This document shows positions 7,678 to 49,740 of a stretch of 60,000 nt of DNA, in pieces. Source of the stretch: Strigamia acuminata (Eukaryota; Arthropoda; Chilopoda; Geophilomorpha; Linotaeniidae); contig OX442314.1 in assembly GCA_949358305.1 (NCBI GenBank), positions 11,651,060 to 11,711,059 of the forward strand, written 5' to 3'. A program made the translations under genes and the position numbers. The number at the start of each line of letters is the position of its first letter. Within the stretch, counting starts at the first letter, position 1. A model generated the notes under the pieces. That model was not told where the DNA came from, made no database searches, and saw only the letters and a program-made list of their open reading frames with translations.

Positions 7678-8058
7678 CGCTCATTGCGCCGACAAATAAC
7701 TTGCGTGATTGCGTTGATTAGAGGGCCACTGACACCGGGTCTCTTGATAAAAACTGACACGGATCTCGCGGCCGACTCCACCCCGGTATTTAGTGTTGCT
7801 AATAGTGTGTGAGTGAGTGTGTGTGTGTCGTCGGAGTCGGAATCGGAGGCGGGCGAAACGCAGACGGCAAAGCAGGGCGCTGCAAGCGAGCGAGAGAGAG
7901 CGAGAGAGAGTGAGAGAGCGAGTGAGGCGAGGCGAGGCGAGCAGAGCAGCAGGCTGAGAGAACCAGTCCCAGTCGTCATCGGCAGAGCGGACGACGACAG
8001 CAGCAGCGGCGTTCGGCTCGGGCGGGCCGGGCCAGCTGCGCCTGCCAGGTCCCTGTGC

Positions 8059-8684
8059 ATGGCACTCGGATTGGGAGGGCTGGGACCGGGTAACCCGCTC
8101 GCTCCCAGCCCCATGTTCACCTTGCCCACGCTCAACTTCACCGCGACTCAAGTGGCGGCCGTGTGCGAAACGCTGGAGGAGAGCGGAGACATCGAGCGCC
8201 TCGGCCGGTTCCTGTGGTCGTTGCCGGTCGCGCATCCCAACTGCGCCGAGCTCAACAAGAACGAGTCGGTGCTGCGAGCCCGGGCTCTGGTGGCGTTCCA
8301 CGCCGGCCACTTTCGCGACATGTACCAGATACTGGAGAGCCATCGGTTCACCAAGGAGTCGCACGCAAAGTTGCAAGCCATGTGGCTCGAAGCGCACTAC
8401 CAGGAAGCGGAAAAACTGCGCGGGAGGCCCCTCGGCCCCGTCGACAAGTACCGCGTGCGCAAAAAGTTCCCGCTGCCTCGCACCATCTGGGACGGCGAGC
8501 AGAAGACGCACTGCTTCAAGGAGCGCACGAGGAGCTTACTGCGCGAGTGGTACCTGCAGGACCCTTATCCGAACCCCACGAAAAAAAGGGAACTCGCGCA
8601 GGCCACGGGACTAACGCCCACGCAGGTTGGCAATTGGTTCAAAAATCGGCGACAACGCGATCGGGCTGCGGCTGCTAAAAATCG
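8059..8684 (+). CDS. Six3/6: Six3/6 (optix class) homeobox protein, exon 1: SIX domain and homeodomain
   Basis: Encodes residues 1-208 plus two bases of codon 209. After a short Gly/Pro leader (1-19) comes the Six3/6 signature FTLPTLNF, then the SIX domain (about 27-139, including [20 protein letters not shown] and [19 protein letters not shown]) and the homeodomain (about 140-202). The homeodomain's recognition helix reads [15 protein letters not shown] and is followed by DRAAAAKNR. The match to vertebrate SIX3/SIX6 and fly Optix is nearly residue for residue across both domains. Family members are nuclear transcription factors of anterior brain and eye development, and many repress with Groucho/TLE partners. 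ATG 8059 is the first in-frame ATG after a stop at 7810; ATG 8113 (MFTLPTL) is the alternative. The exon ends at a CG|GTAAAT donor in phase 2, where vertebrate SIX3 is also split. Confidence 0.95.
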
Positions 8685-9892
8685 GTAAATACTAACTTAT
8701 CTTTCCTTCAATTTTTCTCTCTGTTTTTAGCGTTTTTCTTTTCTCCTTTTTCGCTTTCTCTGCTCGTTTGGATAAGTTTTTTCTTACTCTCTGAGCCCGG
8801 TTTGGTGCATCAACAGCGTGTCTCGTTTTTAGGCTTAAACTCGAGTTTACTTTACAACGCGTGGTTTCTTTGTCGAAAAATGAAAAGTACAAACTCATTG
8901 AAATTAGTCATCAAAATGACCTCGATTTCAGTTTGAAAAACGCTGTACAAATTGTCAAAAAATGATTTTAAACTGAAAATGATTTATCACACTAAAAATC
9001 ACGTAAGGAAAATTTTAAAAACGAAAAGAAAATTAGCAAAATTCAAGATAAAATATTGCAAAATAAAATCTTATTCGGGTTCCCGGGGTCGTGAAATCAA
9101 TTACGGCAGAAGCCAATCAAGTAACCGAGCTAACAATCTATTTATACAGAAATTCAACAAATATTTATACCGCTGTTCGTTTTAAATATCCAAAATTTAA
9201 AAATTTTCATAACAAAAAAAAGAAAAAAAGAAAATCGATTAGAAAAATTTATCCAAAATAAGCCGATACACCCCGAACATTTTTCCGACAAGCCCATTCA
9301 CCATTTTCCAACTGACATTAATTGAATTGCCAACATGCTCTCATTTTCCCCGCATCCAACGATCTCTTTCCCACCCCGTCCCGACATACCTGACACGGCA
9401 GCAGCCACCGATTTTTGCCGGGCCTATTGAGTTAAGCCTCTCAGCAAATACCTACCTTTATAAAATTAGATCAGCGTAAATGGCTTTTGATTTTATTGCT
9501 GCCACGTGTGCGACTGAATGCTCCTACTAATACATTCGCACATTTTTTTTATCCTAAATTATTTTTCCCGATTCAAACAGCACTAAAAATTTGCGTTTTT
9601 AAATTCATTTTTACACCGCGAGATGTGACTTTTCGGCTCATGTTTGTAGTCGAGTTTTACTGCAGTCAGGTTTTTCTATAACTCAATTTCCTTCCTCCGT
9701 CGTCCAAGATTCGAAATTGACCGTTTACTTTGTGGTTCTTTTCCGGTATCAGTTTTCTCTCGATATAACGATTTTGTAGAAATAAAGAGATAAAATTTAT
9801 TAAAGCAGTTTTTGCGTCCCGAATGAAAGGAAATAATGCAAATTATTCAAAACAATTAAATTCTCTCCATTTTTTTTTAGATTTTTAAATTT

Positions 9893-36234: not shown

Positions 36235-38569
36235 TACAATTGGCTGAGATGGAGTCAGTCACAAATGTATGAATAAAATCCTTAATGCACAATGCAGATA
36301 TTTTTTTTACCGTTTATTATTTTCATTACACAGTTTGCGACAGGTACTTACTTCTCTTTTATAAAAACCCCTGTTAAGCCTATATTATAAGTATATTGGA
36401 AAACTTATAACTCCACCGGAGCTTCCACTATAACTGAAAATAGCGTAGCCAATCCGTTAGTTTTCCACTATTTACGTCACTGACTAAAAATCTGGATTAG
36501 CATTGACCTCTTTTGCCGCCATTTTGAATTCTCTGCGGCGGAGCACATGTTTCGGTTTATCTAATTGATTGTGCTTTTAATTCTTTTAAATTCACAATAA
36601 TAAAGTTGCAGCATTGTATTGAAACAGTTAAAAACAGAAATTCTCTCTTTTTATGCGAATGAGACATTACTAGTTTCAGTAATCACGTAACATGTATAAG
36701 GTTAACTCTAATCTTATAACTACAACTTAAAACTTCAACTGCAACCCACTTTTACTTTCCACTAAATATAGTGTAAAAAATGTCTTAATTGTAAGGGAAC
36801 AGTACCTGCTGAAAACTGTGTATTATCAAAAAAGGTAACGTTATGCTAATTATCCATTTCCAGTTTTTTGTGAACTAGAGAACTCTTGGACGTTGCGGAG
36901 GACCTTGGACAGTTTATAGCAAAACTACTGTATACAAATCCTTTTCAGTAAAGCTTTGCTGTGTAGCGATGCAATTGCTTTCACGAATCAGAATCGTACA
37001 CTAAGTACATTCAAAAAGTCCTCTTTTTAGTGTTTTAGGTGCTTGTGTTTTTGTTTTTGTATCTTTTAACATCACAAAACAAAACACAAACATCCAAAAC
37101 CCTTAACACAAGAGTTTTCGAATGCAGCTACTGTAAAAAAGAGTTTTAGTTAATAATTTACAGGTGAATTATCGTAAAATTATAGGTAAAAACCTGTGTT
37201 TTCAACGAAAATCTTCCGTTCACTTGCTGAATAATATCTATTTGTTCTCTTAATAGTAAATACAGTATCATGTAAGAAACGGAATTGCCTGTTTTCACAA
37301 ATTACAGAATATCCGTTTCTTTACACCAAATCCAGATAGTGAAAGTCAATCATTTAATTTTACAGAAATTTGTGCTGACAGAATCTGATTTCTTTATGCA
37401 TTTTTTCTATTAGTTTCAGTAAATTAAAATAAGCCCTAAAATGGTACATGCACATACTGTATAATGCGATACTATAAATGCTCCAGAACAATATGAATTA
37501 ACAAAAGAAATTTTCTTTTACTTTATGAAAAGTTTCTGTTATGACATACCTTATGCATAAAATAATTCTGCAAATGCAATTCTGTTGAAGACATAAGAAA
37601 CTTTTCAAAGTCTAGTTTCACTTAAAGGCAGTGCTGGAAAGCCATCCAGCACTGTCTTCAATAAAATGCTATGTATAGACACCTTTTTTCTTGCAGCATT
37701 GTACATGCACATGCCTAAGTGCAGGAAATTAAGCAATACATTCATTCCTCGCAGCTTTGGCCTTCCCACATTGCAGATGCATTGAGCAGTTATCTCCTTA
37801 GCACTTTTGCTTAGTCCCAAAATGATTAATCCTTTTTCTTTTCATGACAGGGTCAGAGTCCTTGCAACCTACAAAAGCTTCGTTCCATCCCTCAGGTAGT
37901 TCAACGACGATTCAATTAACTTTTCTTTTCTTAACACTTTTTTCTTCTTTCTTTTTTGCAACTTTAAAGAACAATAAACGTGTACGAGATAATCTTCTTT
38001 GCATTTCCCTCAAACAAACTGGTTTGCGCATTAAACCAGTAGACAAGCAGCAAATTTAACCCACAAAAAAATCGCACCTGTGAAATCAACTTGACTCACA
38101 ATGTAATGGTTAGAAAAATGATGTTTTCGAGGATCTTTGATACACTTTATGAGTGAGTGCACCCATACAAGTGTCTTAATCAGGCGAAGAACAGGAGGAG
38201 GAGGAGATAGGGTGTGTGGAAGAAAGAAAGAGTAGGCACTCGTTGATTTGCACGTGCGGAGCTCAGTAATTGCCGGCCGCTCAGCTGACGTCTTCATAAG
38301 TGGGCGGCGGGCCATTGGCCGCGAAGAGGCCTCTTGGGCAGTGTAGGAGACCGAAAAAACAATCCATCACTGGGATGGCGAGAAGCAGGAGTTATTAACT
38401 TTTCTTAAAAAGGAAAGACGGAAAAAGAAAAACGTGAACTTCATTTTCTTTTAGAAAATAATAAATAAATAAAAAATTTCTAAAAAGAAGTGACTCCTGG
38501 TTTTGAAAAGATGCACGGTCATAGAAAGTGAGAACATGAATTTTTAATCAGTTTATTTCTTCAATAAAT
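36235..38569. other. No gene recognised; one small hairpin
   Basis: AT-rich unique DNA. At 37629-37654 lies a perfect 10-bp stem, CAGTGCTGGA with TCCAGCACTG, around a six-base loop. The block 37840-38340 is slightly more complex, with no supportable exon. Confidence 0.4.
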
Positions 38570-38574
38570 CGGTA

Positions 38575-38845
38575 ATCTAAAAATCAGATTAAAAGTCATA
38601 ATTTTTAGAAATTATAATCAAAAATCATAAATTTTAGAAATTATAATAAAAAATCATAATTTTTAGAAATTGTAATCAGAAATTATAACTTTTTAAAACT
38701 TATCTGATCAAAAATCATAATTTTTAAAAATTCTGATCAAAAATCATAATTTTTAAAAATTTAAAATCAAAAGTCAATTATAAAAAATTTAATACCAAAA
38801 ATTATTATTTTGAAAAATTTCAGATAAAAATAATAATTTTAGTTT
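38575..38845. repeat. Degenerate AT-rich minisatellite, about 28-30 bp
   Basis: Eight or so diverged units of AAAAATCATAATTTTTAGAA followed by ATTATAATC. Confidence 0.7.
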
Positions 38846-38960
38846 TAAAGAAATTGACAAATTGAAAAATCTTACAAATTTTCAAATTTTCCAATATTAA
38901 AAAAAAAATCAAATTTCATTTTGTGCATCAAAAACGTCGCGATTTGGTTCAAAGTTTTCA

Positions 38961-39125
38961 CTAAACTCTATTCCAAAAAGTATTACAAATACTCCCATTG
39001 GTTGGGAGATTCACAGTTCAGTTGTGTCTTGAATATGATGCTGTTTTCAGATTCCAGTAGACTTAAAGTGTCTCAACCAACCAACCAATGGGAGTATTTG
39101 TAATACTTTTTGGAATAGAGTTTAG
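38961..39125. mobile_element. 165-bp hairpin MITE with near-perfect arms
   Basis: Arms of about 47 bp (38961-39007 and 39079-39125) pair almost perfectly; the outer end is CTAAACTCTATTCCAAAAAG and the inner part is CAATGGTT-like (CCCATTGGTTGG). The high arm identity suggests a recent element or strong constraint. Confidence 0.75.
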
Positions 39126-40400: not shown

Positions 40401-40924
40401 CAAGAAAACGGGCATAAACCATCATCAAAATTCATATTGCGCATCTCAGTCTGCGCAGTTGATTTTCTAGTTTTAAGCCTAATATTAGGCATACACGGCA
40501 ATAGAAGACGCTTTGCTTTTGGAGCGCCCAATAAAGCTGACACAGTTACAGGAATTAGGACAAAGAATCATCAAAGACCACAGGGCTCCGAGTCGCGTTT
40601 CGTGTTCTATAATTAATTCTCAATTAGTTTTACGTATCATCAATTCCCCATCAATCTTAAACCACCGGATCATAGGTACTAATTAACGGCTTCACCGGAC
40701 CCACTGGAACCCGAGCTTTAACATTAGTGTGTTTTCTTTGCATCTTGCCACTTATACACCTGTGATTAAACCAAGGCAATTCCTAAAAATACCTCGAAAA
40801 AGAAAAAAAACAAAACATTTCAGTTTGACAACTAATTCTTTTTGCAAAAGATAAATCGTGTTCGATGTTCATTTATCACATCAAAACTTGTTATTATGGC
40901 TGCAGGTGACATTGAGGGTAAGCT

Positions 40925-42084
40925 TGTAATGAGCTCAAATTTCACTATAAAATAATAGTGAAATTTCTTTCTCATTGGTGCCGCATCGGGACTTATCAAA
41001 ATTCTACTAAAACTCAACTCTAAAATCTTAACTGACTAATCAAAGAAGAAATAATCACTAATTAGTTCTTAAATAAAGGAAAAAGATTTATTCTTGGCTT
41101 GAATAAACTAATAGTAAAATACAATTAAATAAAAGGAATTAAAGGTAAAAGTAATAATAATTGAAGGTGAAATGGCGAAAATAATACAAAATAGCGGCGA
41201 TGGCTTGTCGCTCGCTCTCGAACTTCGTTCTTCACTCGACGCTCGCTCTCGAACCTCGTTCTTCACTCGACGCTCGCTCTCGGACCTCGATACTCGCTCT
41301 CGGACCTCAATGCCCGCTCCAAACCTCAATGCCCGCTCCAAACTTCACTCTTTACTCACGATGTTCATTCCTGGTTAAACCGGACAAATTTCCGAATTCT
41401 TGGTGACTTGAACTCGGACACAATTCCGTTTCTTCTCTCTCAAAACTCGCAACAGATTCGGACACAATTCCGACTCTTCTTCCTTGATGACTCCGTGGTT
41501 GCGGCAAATTCCGCTTTATGTTGACTGGGACAAATTTCCCAATGAGGATTTCTCATCCAAACAATGGCTGCTTGGCAAGAATGATGATCTCTCCAAACAA
41601 TGGCTGCTTGGCAAGATGAAAATCCCACTGATGAATATGCTCAATCAGCAAGATAAATTTCCCACTACTGGATGTACACAGTAGCAAGAACTCCCACAAT
41701 AACTTTATGTTATTGTAAGAAATGAGTCTCAATACTCAAGAACATCTCAAAACTGCTTTAGCAATTTGCAAGAAGGAGTCTAAATACTCAGGCAATCTTT
41801 CACCAAATCCACTTGAAGAATTGTATTTTCCCAGGGTAGATTTTGTGACTTGTTGCTCTCAAAGTTGATTTCAGACTGAAGATTTTTCCTCATTCTCTGC
41901 AGGAAGCATTTCCTGTTACAGGAAGCTTATGGGCTGGTTGCCCTGGCAACCACCCTCATGTCTTCAAGTTATGCCAGACTTCCTGTTCAGGCATAAAAAA
42001 TAAACTCAAATAAAAATATGAAATATATAAAATATTTCCAGACACATTTCTGTTCTTCATCTAGTGACCACTAGGGTCACTACA
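40925..42084 (-). repeat. 3' LTR
   Basis: Read on the minus strand it starts TGTAGTGACCCTAGTGGTCA, contains a TTTTATATATTTCATA TATA-like run about 50-65 bases in, a palindromic X-box, and a tandem CGCTCGCTCTCGAACCTCG-type block (about 41205-41345). AATAAA (41084-41089, reverse) is a possible poly(A) signal. It differs from the other LTR at about eight positions, six of them clustered at 41324-41331. Confidence 0.93.
41936..41951. promoter_or_regulatory. Perfect palindromic X-box in 3' LTR
   Basis: GGTTGCCCTGGCAACC contains GTTGCC-CT-GGCAAC, a full match to the RFX consensus. It lies about 135-150 bases into the LTR on the transcribed strand, close to the TATA-like run. Confidence 0.6.
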
Positions 42085-42098
42085 CTTCCCCCCTTTTT
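42085..42098 (-). other. Polypurine tract for plus-strand priming
   Basis: Minus strand AAAAAGGGGGGAAG directly adjoins the 3' LTR. This fixes the element's orientation. Confidence 0.85.
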
Positions 42099-42120
42099 AG
42101 GAAGTTAGTTCCTAACTTCT

Positions 42121-45100
42121 CTAAATCTCATCATCGATCCTCGAGGCGAAGTCCTTGATGGGGATTTCAGATTCGGAGACCGAAAACTTCAGTTTGTCTT
42201 GGGATTTCGTTGAATCATTCCTTGTCGTAACCGATTGATTCTGTCCAGCAATTGCAGATGGTGTCCCGCTCCCAGGACTGAAATCCTGCCATCCGCTTCT
42301 TCCGGCAGCTTCCTTCAAGTGACCGGTCCAGTTGGCTCGAACAGGCAATTGATTTTCAGTTGTGTGTTCAAATGATCTGAAACAGGCATCTTGCAAAACT
42401 TTGCCTGAGTCAGCTCGATCATTCTGAGTTTTAACATTCATTTCTGGTGTTGTCGCCACTAATTGTTGTTGCACAGCTGATGCGTTTGTTGCTTCAAAAT
42501 TCAATGGCTTTTTGCTTTCCATTAATGTGATTTTATTCCCTGCAATCTTCTCAATTTCAAGCCACTGCTTCTGGATTTCCGGTTGAGTGTTTGGCAAATC
42601 TACATGTTGAATTCTGAACTCCTCCAATAAAAAACTTGCAACTGGCTGTTTTCCTTCAGATGTACTCTTAATTGTAACTGTAGTGGGCACTGTAGCTCTG
42701 CTGTCTGAATTGCTACAATCAGATTTTTTAACAGTATCTGAAAAATTAATCTTGGACTTATTTCCAATTGCAACTGCACTGACAATATGTTTCTGTAGGT
42801 CAGTTGATTCAGTGTAGCTTGCGTAACTAAGCTTCATTGCAGTTTTAACTTCACTGGACTCCATGAAGTGTTGATCAACTTGGATTATTTGATTTGGTTG
42901 CTTTTCCAATAAATTAATTTTTGAAATGTTTTCAGTTGTGATTGAGCTGGCAGCAAATTTTGGTAACTCAATTGATTGAGTGTTGTGTTGCTTCAAGTCA
43001 ATTCTCTGCAAAGTTTTTTCCAAAATTCTGTTTTCTTTTTCTGTTGGTCGTGGACCTTGTTTTTCAATTTGACCAATTGATGTTAATACTTGGCAATCTT
43101 GATTTTCTGGTCGTCCTTTCAATCCTGTATTTGTATGCTGTTTACTGCAAAGCATCTTGTAATCATCTGTTTGTAGAGGTTTTTCATTTTCATGTTCACT
43201 CCTTGTATCTCCAGATGTTTGGATTGTTTCTACCAGTTTAACTTCAGACCTTTCCTCTAATTGAATCAATTGCTGTTTAGCTTGGATTCTTTTCTTTGGC
43301 AGCTTCTCCACTTTTTCTTTGGTGTCTTGAGTTTCATTTGCCAAATCCAGTCGCTGATAACAATTTTTGATCAAAATTTTTACTTCCTGTAGGTCTTCAG
43401 AAGTTATATTTTCCAGTATGTTCTTCAGAGCCACGATGAAATATTTGGAGGGCCACTCTGAATTCTGCCGACATAATTTCGGTGAAAACGTGGAATCTTG
43501 TAACATTACATTATCTGTCAGTCGTTTGATCACTTTTCGAAGTTGTTTTCGAACAATTTTCGTTTCTCGAACCAGACATTTATTTTCTGATTTTCTAGGA
43601 TTCCTGGATGAATTTTGATTCTTTTTCTCTTTTTCCATCACTCTTCCCCCCTTTTTTGGAAATGGTTGAACTTGTTCATCAGTTTCAAAATCTACACTTT
43701 TTGGAAAAAGCAATGGATTTTCTTCTAAGTTTTCAAAAATCAAATTTTCTGTGTCCGATTCGATAATTTTTTCTGCAATCTGTGCATCATCTTGGTTCTT
43801 CTTATCATCAGAATTTTGTGTATCCTGTAGAGGTTGCGCATTTTTGTGAGCTTGCATTTTGTCCGATTTGGACGCACTTTGTGTAATTTTATCACTTTCG
43901 ACACCCTGTGTGCCTTCTGCATGTCGTGTGTCTTCTGCACTTTGCACACTTTTTTCTTCTTGTTGTCTACCATCTATGGCTGTTTTTTGGTCATTGAAAT
44001 TTTCGAAATTGATTGATCTTTGATGGTGACGATCATTTTCGTTTGGCCAGCCTGCCATACATGTGTCAACTTGTGTTTGGCCAAGTTCTCTGTTTGCTGT
44101 GGACATTCTGATGTCATCTGGTTGTTGGAGGTTCTGCTTGTCCATGACATCAAATAACATTTTCTTCTGAGCAGGTGTTGAGGTTTGGTTATTATCTCTA
44201 CGATATTTTGTATCGTCATTTCCTCGCTTTACTGCATTTCCTGTTGAATCCGTAATTGACTGTTCAACTTTCGACTGATGCATGACACTTGCTGTATTCC
44301 TAACTGGTGGACACCGTGAATGTGCCATGTACCGCAGCTCTTGTGGATCTGGTTTTGACTTCTTTGCGTCTTCCTGAGCTGGTGGAGATGCTTTAGGAAA
44401 ATTTTCGTTTTCAACATGCAATGATGATTCCATTGTCTTCCCTTCTACGACGAGTGCTTGATTAAAGCTGTCAATCTTTTCCATTTTTTCAGAAGGTGTC
44501 TTTTTTGCAAAATTAATCGAAAATGTTTTCATTTCTAGAATTAAGCTTTTCCTCGATTCAGACATTGTTTCTGTTTCTTCACCAGATGTAGATAACCTTT
44601 TTAATGCCTTCTTGACTGCATCCATTGCTACTGGCAATGACAATTTTCTGGCAACTTCAGAAAACCTTAAGTCCACTGGTGAGTTGTGTCTTTTCCTTGT
44701 GGTTACCTCAGCACTGGTCCCATATCTTAAAATTTTCTGGTCATCTCTGGATTGACGTTTCGTCTCTGCAGGACTGTCTCTAGTTTCGGTCTGTAAACGG
44801 CGACGTACTTCTTGTAATTTAAGTCGGGTTGGCGAGCGTACTGCTGATAATGCCGTGCTGTCAACTGATTTTCTGGTCGAAGTCTTCTTATCCGCCTTTA
44901 TTAAACAACCTCTTTCTTCGGTTATTTCGATTGGTTCTTCGAACAACAATTTCGTGAGATCGCTTTTGCTTCGTGGAATGGATTTTACATTTTCAGATAA
45001 TGAACGTACTGGAGATGTGGTGCGCGATACGTAATGTCTTCGTGATTGTACTTTGTTGGCTTCGAATTTATTTTGTGTTTCGCGTATTTCAAGCTCCATT

Positions 45101-46413
45101 CTTATTTGCGCGAGTTTATTGTCCAATTTGGTTTCACGTTCCTTGCGCTCTTCCACAAGTAATTGTTCCTGTAGTTTTTGCTCTTCTAATCTGTAACATT
45201 CCCTCCGCTGATCTCGATCATTCGCCGCAGCTATCCATGCAGCATATTCCTCGTGGGACATTGGTTCATTTATGTGGCAATAACATGCTTCATGCGTAAT
45301 GTCTAGCATCCGGTCTTGTACTTCTCGCAGCTTGAGACGTGTTGGCGAAATTATTCTTTTCAACTGTGTCAAGTCGGTCCTGCAACTGGGTGAGAATCTT
45401 GCGCGATTTAGCAATAAACACTTTTGACATGTGGCACGTGGTACGCATTGTTTTGGTGATTGCACTGTTTGCATTGTTAAATCCACTGATTCCTGGGAAC
45501 TCGAGGGAGATTTTGCTAGACTTTCATCCGTTTGTTTCAAGACGAATTCTTGTTCTTTTATTGCGTTTGCTGGTGAACCAAAGTTATACGACTCATTTCG
45601 ATAAGAGTAACCATACTCGTTTTGCTGACACGCTTTGTCTTTGAAATGTGATTCACTTTTCTGGCGGGCTTCGTCCTGATAACGCGACTCATTTCGCTGA
45701 TTTGAGTCCTCGTTTGGACGTGAGTTGTTCTTAAAACGTGATTCACTTCTGTGGCAAATTTCGTCATGATAATGCGACTCATTTCGCGGATCTGAATTTT
45801 CGCGTTGACGTGATTCGCAACAATAACGCGACTCGTTTCGCGAATGTGAGTCCTCTTGTTGACACTCTTTGTCACGGTAGTGCGACTCATTTCGCGACTG
45901 GAAGTCCTCGTATTGGCGGAAATCGTCTTTGAGCGAACGTTCTCGTGACGTAGAAGGACCATGTTCTTCTTTTCTTTGATTAACTTCGCTTCGACTATCA
46001 AGTCCCGAATCATTTCGGTTATCATATCGAATGTCGTATTTTGGTATATCCTGATCTCGTTGATCGCATCTTCTTTGATAGTTCTGTGGTGAAGAAGAAT
46101 GACGCATTTCATTTTTATCTCTTGATTGCCGTGTCTTATGGATTGTTAATGTACCACTTCTACTCTGGCTGGCTTGTAGTTGGTGGTCAGCCATCTTGAT
46201 TGTAAAATCTTGGAAAAAATTTTCTTGATCCCGTTGAACAATCTTGGAATGTTTTCTGTCATCTGTGTTCTTAATGGCAATCGGAGACGACATATCTTCT
46301 GTGTGGTGTAACAATCCCAAATGTGGTGGCAAACTATATCTTTTCAATCGCAATGATGATTGTTGAACTTCCATGGTTGGTCTTTGTACTTGTTTCTTAT
46401 GATGATCAGACAT
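42121..46413 (-). CDS. Orphan 1,430-residue protein of the LTR element, function unknown
   Basis: One uninterrupted frame from ATG 46411-46413 to a stop at 42121-42123, filling 93% of the interior. No known family is recognised and no polymerase or gag motif is seen. Visible architecture: a basic, Gln/Ser-rich N-terminus; an array around RNES(H/R)Y with 18- and about 30-residue spacing (about 174-275); a Cys/His cluster (C323, C329, C332, C344, C377, C379, H380) that could bind metal; a charged coiled-coil stretch (about 400-455); a motif SPTRLKLREVQDRM at 356, repeated at 527 (SPTRLKLQEVRRRL) and more loosely at 578; then a long Lys/Gln/Asp/Glu-rich, mostly disordered part with a hydrophobic helical patch (SKYFIVALKNILENITSEDL). 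No signal peptide or membrane segment is evident. It might be a highly derived gag-like or a captured host protein; neither can be shown from sequence. Confidence 0.8.
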   Translation of the reverse strand: MSDHHKKQVQRPTMEVQQSSLRLKRYSLPPHLGLLHHTEDMSSPIAIKNTDDRKHSKIVQRDQENFFQDFTIKMADHQLQASQSRSGTLTIHKTRQSRDKNEMRHSSSPQNYQRRCDQRDQDIPKYDIRYDNRNDSGLDSRSEVNQRKEEHGPSTSRERSLKDDFRQYEDFQSRNESHYRDKECQQEDSHSRNESRYCCESRQRENSDPRNESHYHDEICHRSESRFKNNSRPNEDSNQRNESRYQDEARQKSESHFKDKACQQNEYGYSYRNESYNFGSPANAIKEQEFVLKQTDESLAKSPSSSQESVDLTMQTVQSPKQCVPRATCQKCLLLNRARFSPSCRTDLTQLKRIISPTRLKLREVQDRMLDITHEACYCHINEPMSHEEYAAWIAAANDRDQRRECYRLEEQKLQEQLLVEERKERETKLDNKLAQIRMELEIRETQNKFEANKVQSRRHYVSRTTSPVRSLSENVKSIPRSKSDLTKLLFEEPIEITEERGCLIKADKKTSTRKSVDSTALSAVRSPTRLKLQEVRRRLQTETRDSPAETKRQSRDDQKILRYGTSAEVTTRKRHNSPVDLRFSEVARKLSLPVAMDAVKKALKRLSTSGEETETMSESRKSLILEMKTFSINFAKKTPSEKMEKIDSFNQALVVEGKTMESSLHVENENFPKASPPAQEDAKKSKPDPQELRYMAHSRCPPVRNTASVMHQSKVEQSITDSTGNAVKRGNDDTKYRRDNNQTSTPAQKKMLFDVMDKQNLQQPDDIRMSTANRELGQTQVDTCMAGWPNENDRHHQRSINFENFNDQKTAIDGRQQEEKSVQSAEDTRHAEGTQGVESDKITQSASKSDKMQAHKNAQPLQDTQNSDDKKNQDDAQIAEKIIESDTENLIFENLEENPLLFPKSVDFETDEQVQPFPKKGGRVMEKEKKNQNSSRNPRKSENKCLVRETKIVRKQLRKVIKRLTDNVMLQDSTFSPKLCRQNSEWPSKYFIVALKNILENITSEDLQEVKILIKNCYQRLDLANETQDTKEKVEKLPKKRIQAKQQLIQLEERSEVKLVETIQTSGDTRSEHENEKPLQTDDYKMLCSKQHTNTGLKGRPENQDCQVLTSIGQIEKQGPRPTEKENRILEKTLQRIDLKQHNTQSIELPKFAASSITTENISKINLLEKQPNQIIQVDQHFMESSEVKTAMKLSYASYTESTDLQKHIVSAVAIGNKSKINFSDTVKKSDCSNSDSRATVPTTVTIKSTSEGKQPVASFLLEEFRIQHVDLPNTQPEIQKQWLEIEKIAGNKITLMESKKPLNFEATNASAVQQQLVATTPEMNVKTQNDRADSGKVLQDACFRSFEHTTENQLPVRANWTGHLKEAAGRSGWQDFSPGSGTPSAIAGQNQSVTTRNDSTKSQDKLKFSVSESEIPIKDFASRIDDEI
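43643..43657 (-). other. Internal copy of the polypurine tract (central-PPT-like)
   Basis: Minus strand AAAAAAGGGGGGAAG contains the same 14-mer as the terminal polypurine tract, in frame within the orphan gene (encoding PKKGGR near residue 919). Central polypurine tracts are used by lentiviruses and some LTR retroelements as a second plus-strand start. Confidence 0.45.
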
Positions 46414-46677
46414 GATGTTAATTTTTAGTAGATAGGATAATGAAGAAAGAAATAGTTTAACTTAGAAAAATATCTTCTAAACTCTGTTAACCATTTTCCC
46501 CCTTTTTTGTTTGAGAACCAAAAAAAAAAAAAATTCACACCTATTCTTACTACAAATCAAAAAATAGAAGTTCCTCAATCTAATTAACCTATCACAAAAC
46601 AATTTTCCAAACAAATTAGGTCCTTCAACTAAATAAAAGTTGTTAAGGTTCAAATCTTTCAGGCCCAGGCCCCCAAG
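46414..46677 (-). other. Leader between 5' LTR and orphan gene
   Basis: 264 bp without a long frame. It includes another purine run, AAAAAAGGGGGAAAA (46494-46508, minus strand), and the primer-binding candidate next to the LTR. A packaging signal would be expected here but cannot be identified by eye. Confidence 0.6.
46658..46675 (-). other. Candidate tRNA primer-binding site
   Basis: Two bases after the 5' LTR the minus strand reads TGGGGGCCTGGGCCTGAA, beginning TGG as needed to pair with a tRNA CCA end. I cannot assign it to a tRNA, and the GC content is atypical. Confidence 0.35.
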
Positions 46678-47837
46678 TGTAATGAGCTCAAATTTCACTA
46701 TAAAATAATAGTGAAATTTCTTTCTCATTGGTGCCGCATCGGGACTTATCAAAATTCTACTAAAACTCAACTCTAAAATCTTAACTGACTAATCAAAGAA
46801 GAAATAATCACTAATTAGTTCTTAAATAAAGGAAAAAGATTTATTCTTGGCTTGAATAAACTAATAGTAAAATACAATTAAATAATAGGAATTAAAGGTA
46901 AAAGTAATAATAATTGAAGGTGAAATGGCGAAAATAATACAAAATAGCGGCGATGGCTTGTCGCTCGCTCTCGAATTTCGTTCTTCACTCGACGCTCGCT
47001 CTCGAACCTCGTTCTTCACTCGACGCTCGCTCTCGGACCTCGATACTCGCTCTCGGACCTCAATGCCCGCTCCAAACCTCAAAACGGCGTCCAAACTTCA
47101 CTCTTTACTCACGATGTTCATTCCTGGTTAAACCGGACAAATTTCCGAATTCTTGGTGACTTGAACTCGGACACAATTCCGTTTCTTCTCTCTCAAAACT
47201 CGCAACAGATTCGGACACAATTCCGACTCTTCTTCCTTGATGACTCCGTGGTTGCGGCAAATTCCGCTTTATGTTGACTGGGACAAATTTCCCAATGAGG
47301 ATTTCTCATCCAAACAATGGCTGCTTGGCAAGAATGATGATCTCTCCAAACAATGGCTGCTTGGCAAGATGAAAATCCCACTGATGAATATGCTCAATCA
47401 GCAAGATAAATTTCCCACTACTGGATGTACACAGTAGCAAGAACTCCCACAATAACTTTATGTTATTGTAAGAAATGAGTCTCAATACTCAAGAACATCT
47501 CAAAACTGCTTTAGCAATTTGCAAGAAGGAGTCTAAATACTCAGGCAATCTTTCACCAAATCCACTTGAAGAATTGTATTTTCCCAGGGTAGATTTTGTG
47601 ACTTGTTGCTCTCAAAGTTGATTTCAGACTGAAGATTTTTCCTCATTCTCTGCAGGAAGCATTTCCTGTTACAGGAAGCTTATGGGCTGGTTGCCCTGGC
47701 AACCACCCTCATGTCTTCAAGTTATGCCAGACTTCCTGTTCAGGCATAAAAAATAAACTCAAATAAAAATATGAAATATATAAAATATTTCCAGACACAT
47801 TTCTGTTCTTCATCTAGTGACCACTAGGGTCACTACA
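46678..47837 (-). repeat. 5' LTR
   Basis: Same length as the 3' LTR, without indels. An 11-bp inverted repeat, AATTTCACTAT with ATAGTGAAATT, lies near its U5 end (46689-46717), and TAGTGACC with GGTCACTA at the U3 end. The promoter should lie here, with transcription running leftwards into the orphan gene. Confidence 0.93.
47689..47704. promoter_or_regulatory. Perfect palindromic X-box in 5' LTR
   Basis: Identical to the site in the 3' LTR. In this promoter-proximal copy it would lie upstream of the presumed transcription start. Confidence 0.6.
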
Positions 47838-49499
47838 AGCTTTACACCTGCCCTCTAGTGTTGGGGGGATTTGCCGGGGTTCAGGAAGACCACCAGCACC
47901 TCAAACTACAAATCGCTGCTTCATATATAATGCACATTTCCGACTTCAACGCTAGAGATCGCCACCCAAATGTCAACAAAATCAGATAATTGTTTCAAAG
48001 CTCAAATCGATTATTAAAACTGATTGCATTGTATTAAACCACTTTTTTATTTCTACTTGTAATTGGCGCTGCACAATCAATTTATTTGACGAAAATTACG
48101 TCACTTCCCGTTGCAAGAACTGACAAAAAACAAACAAACATGGCGCCAAAACGTCTTACCGGTAACTTATTTTCAATGCATTTCTATGCGCAAGAGGCCA
48201 AGATGGTCAATTTTTTCCCGCCTGATGCCTGATTAAGACCCTCTACTTCTCACTTTATCTTTATTATATTTTTTAAAAAATAACCCGGCAAAGAATGAAT
48301 CGAAGTGACGTCACCCCGACTCATCATCAATCAGGTTGTCGTGCAAGTTTCTTTGCTCCTTGTAATTAAGAGCCACCGTTCCCTACACAGATACGTGCAG
48401 TACAAAGCGACACACCTCAAAGGCAAATTGCATTGCATCTGTCTTCATTTTCGGCCACTGATGCGCTTTAACAACACACAAAGATCATCGTTGGCTATTA
48501 TTTATTATTATCATCCCGTATTAGGGGGATTCACGCAACACATTATAATCCAAATAATTACTCGTCCAAACTGCACAAAAATAAAAACTTAATTTCATCT
48601 CGAATTGCAAAAATTAATTATGCTGCCACCATTTTTCTATTGCGCCGCCCTGGTGTTGATTTGGAGCATCGAGTTAATTCCGCTTTGATTAAATGTAAAA
48701 AATAATCTAAGATCTCACGTCTCGTGTTATAATCTTAAGTTTTTTGCTTGGATTATTATAATAGGAATAAAATTATAATCTGTTGCGTAAAATCCCTTAT
48801 TATAACTCTCTTTATTTGCTTTTTTTGTTTCCAAATAGGTGAATCTCTACCGGAAATGCATGATTGCTGGCGTTATTTGTGTAAGTGTAGAGCTGAGACG
48901 TGAGATTGCTTGTACATTTACTCATTGATTGGCCGTCGGTGTGTTGGTCGCGTGACCGATTCGCGGCTCATCTCAGCGCGTCGAAACGACACGAGAGAGA
49001 AAAGGTGCATTCAATCGCTTTGTAAAAACTCGCCACTCGGTCCACCTACAATTCAATTTTCCACCTTCGCCCTCGAAGGACCGTGACGGATAGACGCACG
49101 CGTCCGATTCGATCCGCAACGTCAAAGCCGAGCTAAAAATATTGTAATGTGTTGAAAGACACACGATAGCGGAAATGGGCTGGAAGGACAGCATAAAGAG
49201 ACACAATTATTGTTATTATAAGTGTATTATTTAGTGTACAAAACATGGGAATAAAAGACTGACATCAACAAATTAGTCGAATCAAGGTCGTTTGTGAATC
49301 TGTGACAAATGACAAATGACTAAATAGAATAAAGTCACTAACTAGAACTAATTTTTTTTTTCAACTTTTAGGAAAAGTTAAAAGTTTGTTGCAATCATCA
49401 TCCGCTCCAAAACATTGAATATCAGGCACCAATTAATTGCTTAGTGCAAAATTAAAAGACTAGAAATCCCCCCCCCCCACCTAGCAAAAATTAGTTATT
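47838..49499. other. No gene recognised; CTCF-like site beside the LTR element
   Basis: At 47846-47862 the reverse strand reads AACACTAGAGGGCAGGT, close to the CTCF core CCACTAGRGGGCAG. The part 48860-49210 is more complex and GC-richer. A C-tract lies at 49469-49478. No exon is supported. Confidence 0.35.
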
Positions 49500-49740
49500 A
49501 TAAAATTCCAAAAAATTAATAAAATTGATGAAATTCTAAAAAATTATGTGTAAAATTGATGAAATTCCAAAAGTTTATGTGTAAAATTGATGAAATTCCA
49601 AAAAATTATGTGTAAAATTGACGAAATTCTACAAAATTATGCGTAAAATTAAAGAAATTCTTCAAAATTATGCGTAAAATTAAAAAAATTCGTCAAAACA
49701 ATACATAAAATTAATAAAATGCTACAAAATTGAGTATAAA
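49500..49740. repeat. 31-bp minisatellite, about seven copies
   Basis: Units of AAAATTGATGAAATTCCAAA followed by AAATTATGTGT, diverging towards the right end. Confidence 0.8.

Follow-up and report, generated by a model that had tools for sequence, protein, structure and literature searches.

A probable LTR retrotransposon satellite of Strigamia acuminata, and the patchwork of Ty3/Gypsy partner sequences apparent in its single long frame

Closest described systems

Non-autonomous LTR retrotransposons are usually explained through their cis sequences alone. Elements of the TR-GAG/BARE-2 type are multi-copy, carry one gag-related frame, retain a capsid-bearing gag or descend from one, and occur beside an autonomous partner in the same genome; LARDs combine long LTRs with an interior of more than 4 kb that has no gag-pol and is described as noncoding. 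Autonomous Ty3/Gypsy elements (Metaviridae) possess TG...CA LTRs, 4-bp target duplications, a primer binding site (PBS) and a polypurine tract (PPT), together with a zinc knuckle, reverse transcriptase (RT), RNase H, H2C2 and rve integrase in a characteristic order. The defective-interfering RNAs of coronaviruses have internal deletions that keep the ends and the packaging parts and leave a fused in-frame product, and it has been argued that their fused frames reflect a need for translation. Finally, lentiviruses and Ty1 have a second, central PPT.

The window, by which we mean the whole stretch of 60,000 nucleotides that was analysed (GCA_949358305.1, contig OX442314.1, positions 11,651,060 to 11,711,059), contains an element that resembles each of these systems in part. 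Its LTRs, duplications, PBS and PPT are those of Ty3/Gypsy elements, but it has none of their domains, which are found in Gypsy order in a partner element of the same genome that is itself unusually large and endowed with a third gene. It shares with TR-GAG and BARE-2 the multi-copy, non-autonomous state, the gag-related frame and the autonomous partner, yet it has neither the capsid nor the zinc knuckle, one or both of which TR-GAG elements keep by definition, and the ends of pol and probably of the third gene are fused into its frame. The long LTRs and an interior of more than 4 kb free of gag-pol recall LARDs, whereas this interior is almost wholly one open frame. Internal deletion with retained ends, packaging parts and a fused product recalls defective-interfering RNAs, from which the satellite differs in being integrated and vertically inherited, with diverged sister lineages that show long persistence. 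The pol region of the partner contains the 3' PPT sequence a second time, without any change, and the satellite has kept it; this candidate tract resembles the central PPT of lentiviruses and Ty1, but it lies in the pol tail past the integrase. The genome presents a satellite with several diverged branches that keeps a fused protein without capsid or enzyme; its likely helper is there in 41 copies, as is one element in which the two have recombined. Such a pair is a concrete and testable system for asking whether retrotransposon satellites rely on a self-encoded protein to ride or hinder their helper.

Structure, copies and age of the element

The element (table 1) is 6.9 kb long and lies on the minus strand, its 5' LTR, PBS, leader, frame, PPT and 3' LTR following each other from right to left. 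It has the paired LTRs (5 mismatches and 2 gaps between the two), target-site duplication, PBS and PPT of a non-autonomous LTR retrotransposon, and the gag-pol of an autonomous Ty3/Gypsy element is absent from it. An earlier note, written from the letters of the window, had placed the LTR pair, the AGCT duplications, the PPT and one intact frame precisely where we find them. Elsewhere in the window there are an exon of the SIX homeobox family on the plus strand (7813-8688; SIX1_SD E 6e-48, homeodomain), AT-rich tandem repeats at 38559-38848 (unit about 29 bp) and 49489-49736 (about 31 bp), and a perfect 45-bp inverted repeat with a loop of 75 bp (38961-39125).

Table 1. Features of the element, in coordinates of the window
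Feature	Position	Strand	Remarks
Target-site duplication AGCT, left	40921..40924	.	
3' LTR	40925..42084	-	1,160 bp
3' PPT AAAAAGGGGGGAAG	42085..42098	-	
Frame	42121..46413	-	1,430 codons; patchwork of partner protein parts
Residues 1401-1427, probable partner third-gene end	42133..42213	-	48% over 27, E 0.2 alone
Residues 945-1060	43234..43581	-	no partner match found; 38 genome hits, nearly all satellite-type
Residues 858-930, pol tail past integrase	43624..43842	-	36% over 96, E 1e-6
Internal PPT AAAAAGGGGGGAAG, in frame	43643..43656	-	candidate central PPT; 14 bases identical to 3' PPT
Residues 476-540, worn copy of Gag pre-capsid domain	44794..44988	-	37% to Gag 96-160, E 4e-8
Residues 118-268, RNES-rich repeats	45610..46062	-	27-43% to partner Gag 528-686
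Residues 1-98, conserved N-terminus	46120..46413	-	dN/dS 0.38 vs L051
5' leader	46414..46657	-	part resembles partner leader
PPT-like copy within leader	about 46496-46508	-	
PBS, TGGGGGCC...	about 46658..46675	-	starts two bases past LTR; first bases common to satellite and partner
5' LTR	46678..47837	-	1,160 bp
Target-site duplication AGCT, right	47838..47841	.	

We searched the genome that contains the window (237.5 Mb in 157 contigs) and found its LTR in at least 40 places (40 of 283 candidates scored). A search with the protein, in which 33 of 1,146 candidates were scored and all counts are lower bounds, gave at least 27 window-type copies including that in the window, 25 of the 27 being free of stops in their matched parts, as well as diverged and longer relatives at six places, only three of them stop-free (C8:3794842, C3:11629352, C135:84143) and three with stops. 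Twenty full-length copies were read, namely the window element and 19 more, 18 of which have a frame of 1,430-1,455 codons; in the sole exception, L044, a stop interrupts the frame at residue 481. The two LTRs show no mismatch in their aligned part in 16 of the 20 copies, in 14 of these over the full 1,160 bp. Another 12 LTR pairs were tested for the target duplication, among them the two outermost LTRs of a tandem array; each is flanked by identical 4-bp duplications and none has a duplication of 5 bp. The family of the window element is therefore multi-copy and has moved recently. The description of the earlier note, a recent non-autonomous LTR element with a long open frame as its only gene, is borne out by these multiple copies and near-identical LTR pairs, and the genome check for other copies that it had proposed yielded a normal gag-pol in none of the 20 near-identical copies read. 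A tandem array of the form LTR-interior-LTR-interior-LTR lies at C3:24911030-24923689 (L040 and L041), with its middle LTR common to both units, inside a single AGTT duplication.

The partner and the make-up of the fused frame

General database searches returned no match for the window protein in Pfam or NCBIfam, and the viral Rep proteins that emerged from a PDB search (E 0.21-0.81) were taken as chance. A large protein database had no match at E 0.001 for the window protein, nor for the Gag of the partner; since it is equally blind to the latter, its blank says nothing on orphan status. Structure predictions for residues 930-1080 (mean pLDDT 50.8) and for the capsid region of the partner (46.6) were too poor to use.

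The partner was sought with patterns spanning either the LTR end and PBS or the PPT and LTR start. The first pattern has 92 exact occurrences and the second 86 with no more than one mismatch; a downstream tract could be assigned to 81 of the primer sites, while 11 remain unpaired. The spacing between PBS and PPT is 4.58-4.73 kb in 27 pairs (window type), 5.3-6.3 kb in seven (sister type and one hybrid) and 12.4-13.7 kb in 41 (the partner), plus three pairs at 7-11 kb and three above 14 kb. The partner is a Ty3/Gypsy element of about 15 kb carrying gag, pol and a third gene, and all its 41 copies enclose a match to the capsid region (84-100% identity) and one to the third gene; a single copy, on contig C12, was read, in two pieces, the others being known from their PBS-PPT pairs and protein matches. 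In the C12 copy, gag has 1,260 codons with a zinc knuckle (E 6e-7) and the pol frame contains RT, RNase H, H2C2 and rve integrase domains. The protease match is weak (PF13975, E 1e-4, under its curated cut-off); the order PR-RT-RH-IN and the Gypsy-type domains place the element in Ty3/Gypsy. Its third frame (L054:3351-6395, about 1,015 codons) sits where env would lie and has no match in Pfam, but has at least 135 matches in the genome at 32-100% identity (109 of 1,251 candidates scored), which points to an accessory gene, conserved and evolving fast, in several Gypsy sub-families.

A BEL/Pao origin was considered and rejected: the pol of the partner is of Gypsy type, and the BEL pol match nearest to the sister element L052 (C1:41241804) lies outside that element. 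BEL pol is abundant in the genome, with at least 150 matches (150 of 1,068 candidates scored), and a BEL/Pao-type DUF5641 frame is found on the opposite strand just beyond the same sister (L052:8975-9475), with BEL pol further on.

Identity between satellite and partner is 78-82% where the LTR end runs through the PBS into the start of the leader, and 94-96% over the PPT and LTR start. The autonomous partner that the earlier note had recommended looking for, sharing LTR ends, PBS and PPT, is thus present in 41 copies, the LTRs having been compared at their ends. In terms of coding capacity, this pairing creates a question: What does a frame of 1,430 codons contain, if not the domains of its partner? 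Across the 20 window-type copies and the sisters L051 and L052, the capsid-knuckle region of the partner produces chance-level matches alone (E 0.48-0.68), while its protease, RT, RNase H and integrase produce none up to E 1; capsid, protease, RT and integrase are absent from all 20 window-type copies read. A capsid role for the protein, one of the options in the earlier note, is consequently unlikely, the satellite having no credible match to either the capsid or the zinc knuckle of the partner.

When compared with the remaining parts of the partner proteins, the frame is an in-frame patchwork that combines the Gag region before the capsid, which is coiled and disordered in the partner, with the pol tail and, probably, the last part of the third gene. 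The window protein matches Gag twice (E 4e-8 and 5e-8) and the pol tail once (E 1e-6), the identity to the latter rising to 54% over residues 894-930. The sister L051 matches Gag at E 2e-22 and 4e-16 (Gag 576-834, 98-222, 319-461 and 144-251), the pol tail at 4e-7 and the third-gene end weakly, and residues 316-507 of L052 have 66% identity to Gag 86-277 (192 residues, E 2e-73). The similarity to Gag ends in both sisters at Gag residue 834, near the start of the capsid region. No hits were obtained with five shuffles of the window protein or with two reversed proteins. A global alignment of four proteins was uninformative, the pieces being permuted. The match to the third-gene end is weak by itself (E 0.2 in the window protein, 0.015 in L051), and was assigned because KFSVSESE, with 19 of 24 bases, occupies the same position right before the PPT in partner and satellite.

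For the coiled pre-capsid domain (L053:405-980) the genome yields at least 142 matches (150 of 183 candidates scored), and several of its Gypsy gag families have a comparable region, some with as little as about 23% identity. Its occurrence in several other Gypsy gags, down to 23-24% identity, would suit a different direction of descent, in which the partner took its Gag extension from the satellite, or both owe it to a more ancient common ancestor and the satellite does not derive from the partner family; the comparison of the LTRs at their ends alone leaves room for this too. The pol tail and third-gene end, in partner order at the 3' side, point instead to loss from a full element, and we consider such a reversed or shared origin quite improbable. 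Loss from a full element would have been anything but simple, for the order of the Gag pieces differs from that of the partner and the pre-capsid domain is repeated, which implies several rearrangements behind the frame; the permuted pieces together with the unmatched residues 1-98 and 945-1060 indicate a history exceeding one clean deletion.

The unmatched segments bear on the capture of a host gene, which the earlier note had also raised and with which the blanks in Pfam, NCBIfam and PDB would be compatible. The pieces of Gag and pol tail refute this for the frame as a whole, and the unmatched segments hit satellite-type places almost exclusively: all 34 hits of residues 1-98 fall on such places or on one further short frame, and nearly all 38 hits of residues 945-1060 lie in satellite-type places, C3:632121 and C1:19590695 being among the latter without class assignment. 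Host-gene capture thus finds no support and is hardly credible, and the terms 'orphan' and 'without gag' no longer describe a frame that holds pre-capsid pieces of the partner Gag, a pol tail and probably a third-gene end. C3:632121 has a frame of 1,045 amino acids with 69% identity to residues 945-1035 and stands outside the main classes, as do two short satellite-like 3' pieces at C6:15019068-15022947, each with a PPT.

The polypurine tract provides a further link between the two elements. Its internal and 3' copies co-vary, being GGGGGGAAG in the satellite and GAGGGGAGG in the partner with 14 identical bases in each, and the partner's own variant, AAAAAGAGGGGAGG, also occurs twice, in its pol tail and before its 3' LTR. 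When the satellite interior was resampled 60 times under a first-order model, no run contained an exact match of 12 bases, and matches with one mismatch averaged 0.017 per run. The internal tract looks like a central PPT, which would be a cis reason for keeping the pol-tail segment, and plus strands may be initiated there; its exactness and co-variation in the two elements suggest that an animal Gypsy lineage starts plus strands at a central site. The leaders of the satellite and its sisters, but not that of the partner, contain a third copy that differs slightly.

The best-supported explanation of this anatomy is that the window element is a non-autonomous satellite that is very probably propagated by the proteins of its partner. 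Its RNA would be made from its own LTR and packaged in particles of partner Gag-Pol, as the leader and primer site common to both suggest; it would then be copied by the partner RT, with plus strands starting at the 3' and internal PPTs, and the partner integrase would insert it, leaving duplications of 4 bp. Counting against this account are the broken frame of L044, the stops in three of the six diverged relatives, the low share of frame indels against L051 that are multiples of three, the weak third-gene match and a history of more than one deletion.

Constraint on the frame and exchange with the partner

The two sisters that were read allow the history of the frame to be followed beyond the young window family. 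L051 (C8) measures 7.4 kb between LTR starts and has a frame of 1,990 codons and LTRs identical over 1,147 bp; L052 (C1) has two frames of 929 and 922 codons with a stop between them and LTRs 98.7% identical. Their LTRs show about 71% identity to that of the window element across the initial 298 bases, and similarity returns in patches beyond. Between the window element and L051, dS is 0.165, dN 0.109 and dN/dS 0.66 (0.54-0.82) over 1,234 well-aligned codons, and with the two frames of L052 dN/dS is 0.55 (0.38-0.82) and 0.65 (0.45-0.85). Because the fused layout is common to the window element, L051 and L052, constraint acted after the fusion, and the protein appears to have been under mild constraint ever since; in this respect dN/dS below 1 between sister lineages favours the option, included in the earlier note, that the protein is useful to the element. 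By segment, dN/dS against L051 is 0.38 for residues 1-98, 0.23 for residues 861-944 (the lowest), 0.41 for residues 1331-1430 and 0.50-0.89 elsewhere; in the comparison with L052 the ratio is as high as 1.0 and 1.5 in two segments. Amino-acid identity by segment is 70-89%. The pre-capsid domain of L052 compared with partner Gag has a saturated synonymous difference (pS 0.80) next to a pN of 0.22, implying strong constraint in one or both lineages. Indels in multiples of three, counted in plain nucleotide alignments, make up only 9 of 22 in the frame against L051 and 8 of 10 against L052, versus 11 of 59 and 9 of 35 in noncoding sequence.

The frame might alternatively be leftover coding sequence, open because the copies are young and without function as translation or as protein. 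The absence of LTR mismatches in most copies agrees with this, as do the values of dN/dS within the window family, 0.65 (0.47-1.01) and 0.61 (0.35-1.15), whose intervals include 1, the several stretches at 0.7-0.9 and the stop in L044; this copy has identical LTRs and 31 private changes in a comparison of six copies, from which it follows that a frame-broken copy may have moved. However, the divergence of the window element from L051 postdates the fusion and its dN/dS interval lies wholly below 1, with three segments at 0.23-0.41. Moreover, when 15% change was simulated without selection, the frame acquired an average of 26 stops, with a minimum of 17 among 200 runs, whereas L051, chosen for reading partly for its open frame, has none. 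We therefore judge a functionless frame to be improbable.

A different possibility is that the frame matters as translated RNA and not through its protein, translation shielding the RNA from decay or bringing it to the site of packaging; a long translated frame that keeps the satellite RNA stable would help in cis. Consistent with this, the frame is kept while its sequence changes fast, as the overall dN/dS against L051 and the segment identities attest, and the C-terminal ends vary between sublineages through frameshifts close to the end. A pure need for an open frame does not predict the clear differences in constraint between segments, an objection softened by the nucleotide constraint that the internal PPT adds to one of them. 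This reading has some merit, although we are rather inclined to doubt it. Slightly more attractive, while still tentative, is the idea that the fused protein helps in cis by joining the particles of the partner through its Gag-derived coiled region. An extended version, that the satellite lineage built a stable gene from the tails of Gag, pol and the third protein, and that the coiled region enters partner particles to re-program or partly poison their assembly in favour of satellite RNA, seems unlikely; if true, it would be an endogenous counterpart of defective-interfering particles equipped with a dedicated protein.

Returning to the satellite as a probable passenger of partner particles, one further element combines sequences of both. 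At C6:12505638-12510976, a partner gag with its capsid (99%) is joined to the 3' half of the satellite: residues 945-1060 are present from position 21 onward (99%), the final 101 residues match at 100%, and the tract is of satellite type. A switch of template within a particle common to both appears to be the likeliest origin of this recombinant, with an exchange between DNA copies being less likely. The join, read over 561 bases (L055, C6:12509000-12509560), is partner-like, with 92.5% identity to L053, as far as a short stretch common to both elements, and its last 21 bases are identical to the satellite.
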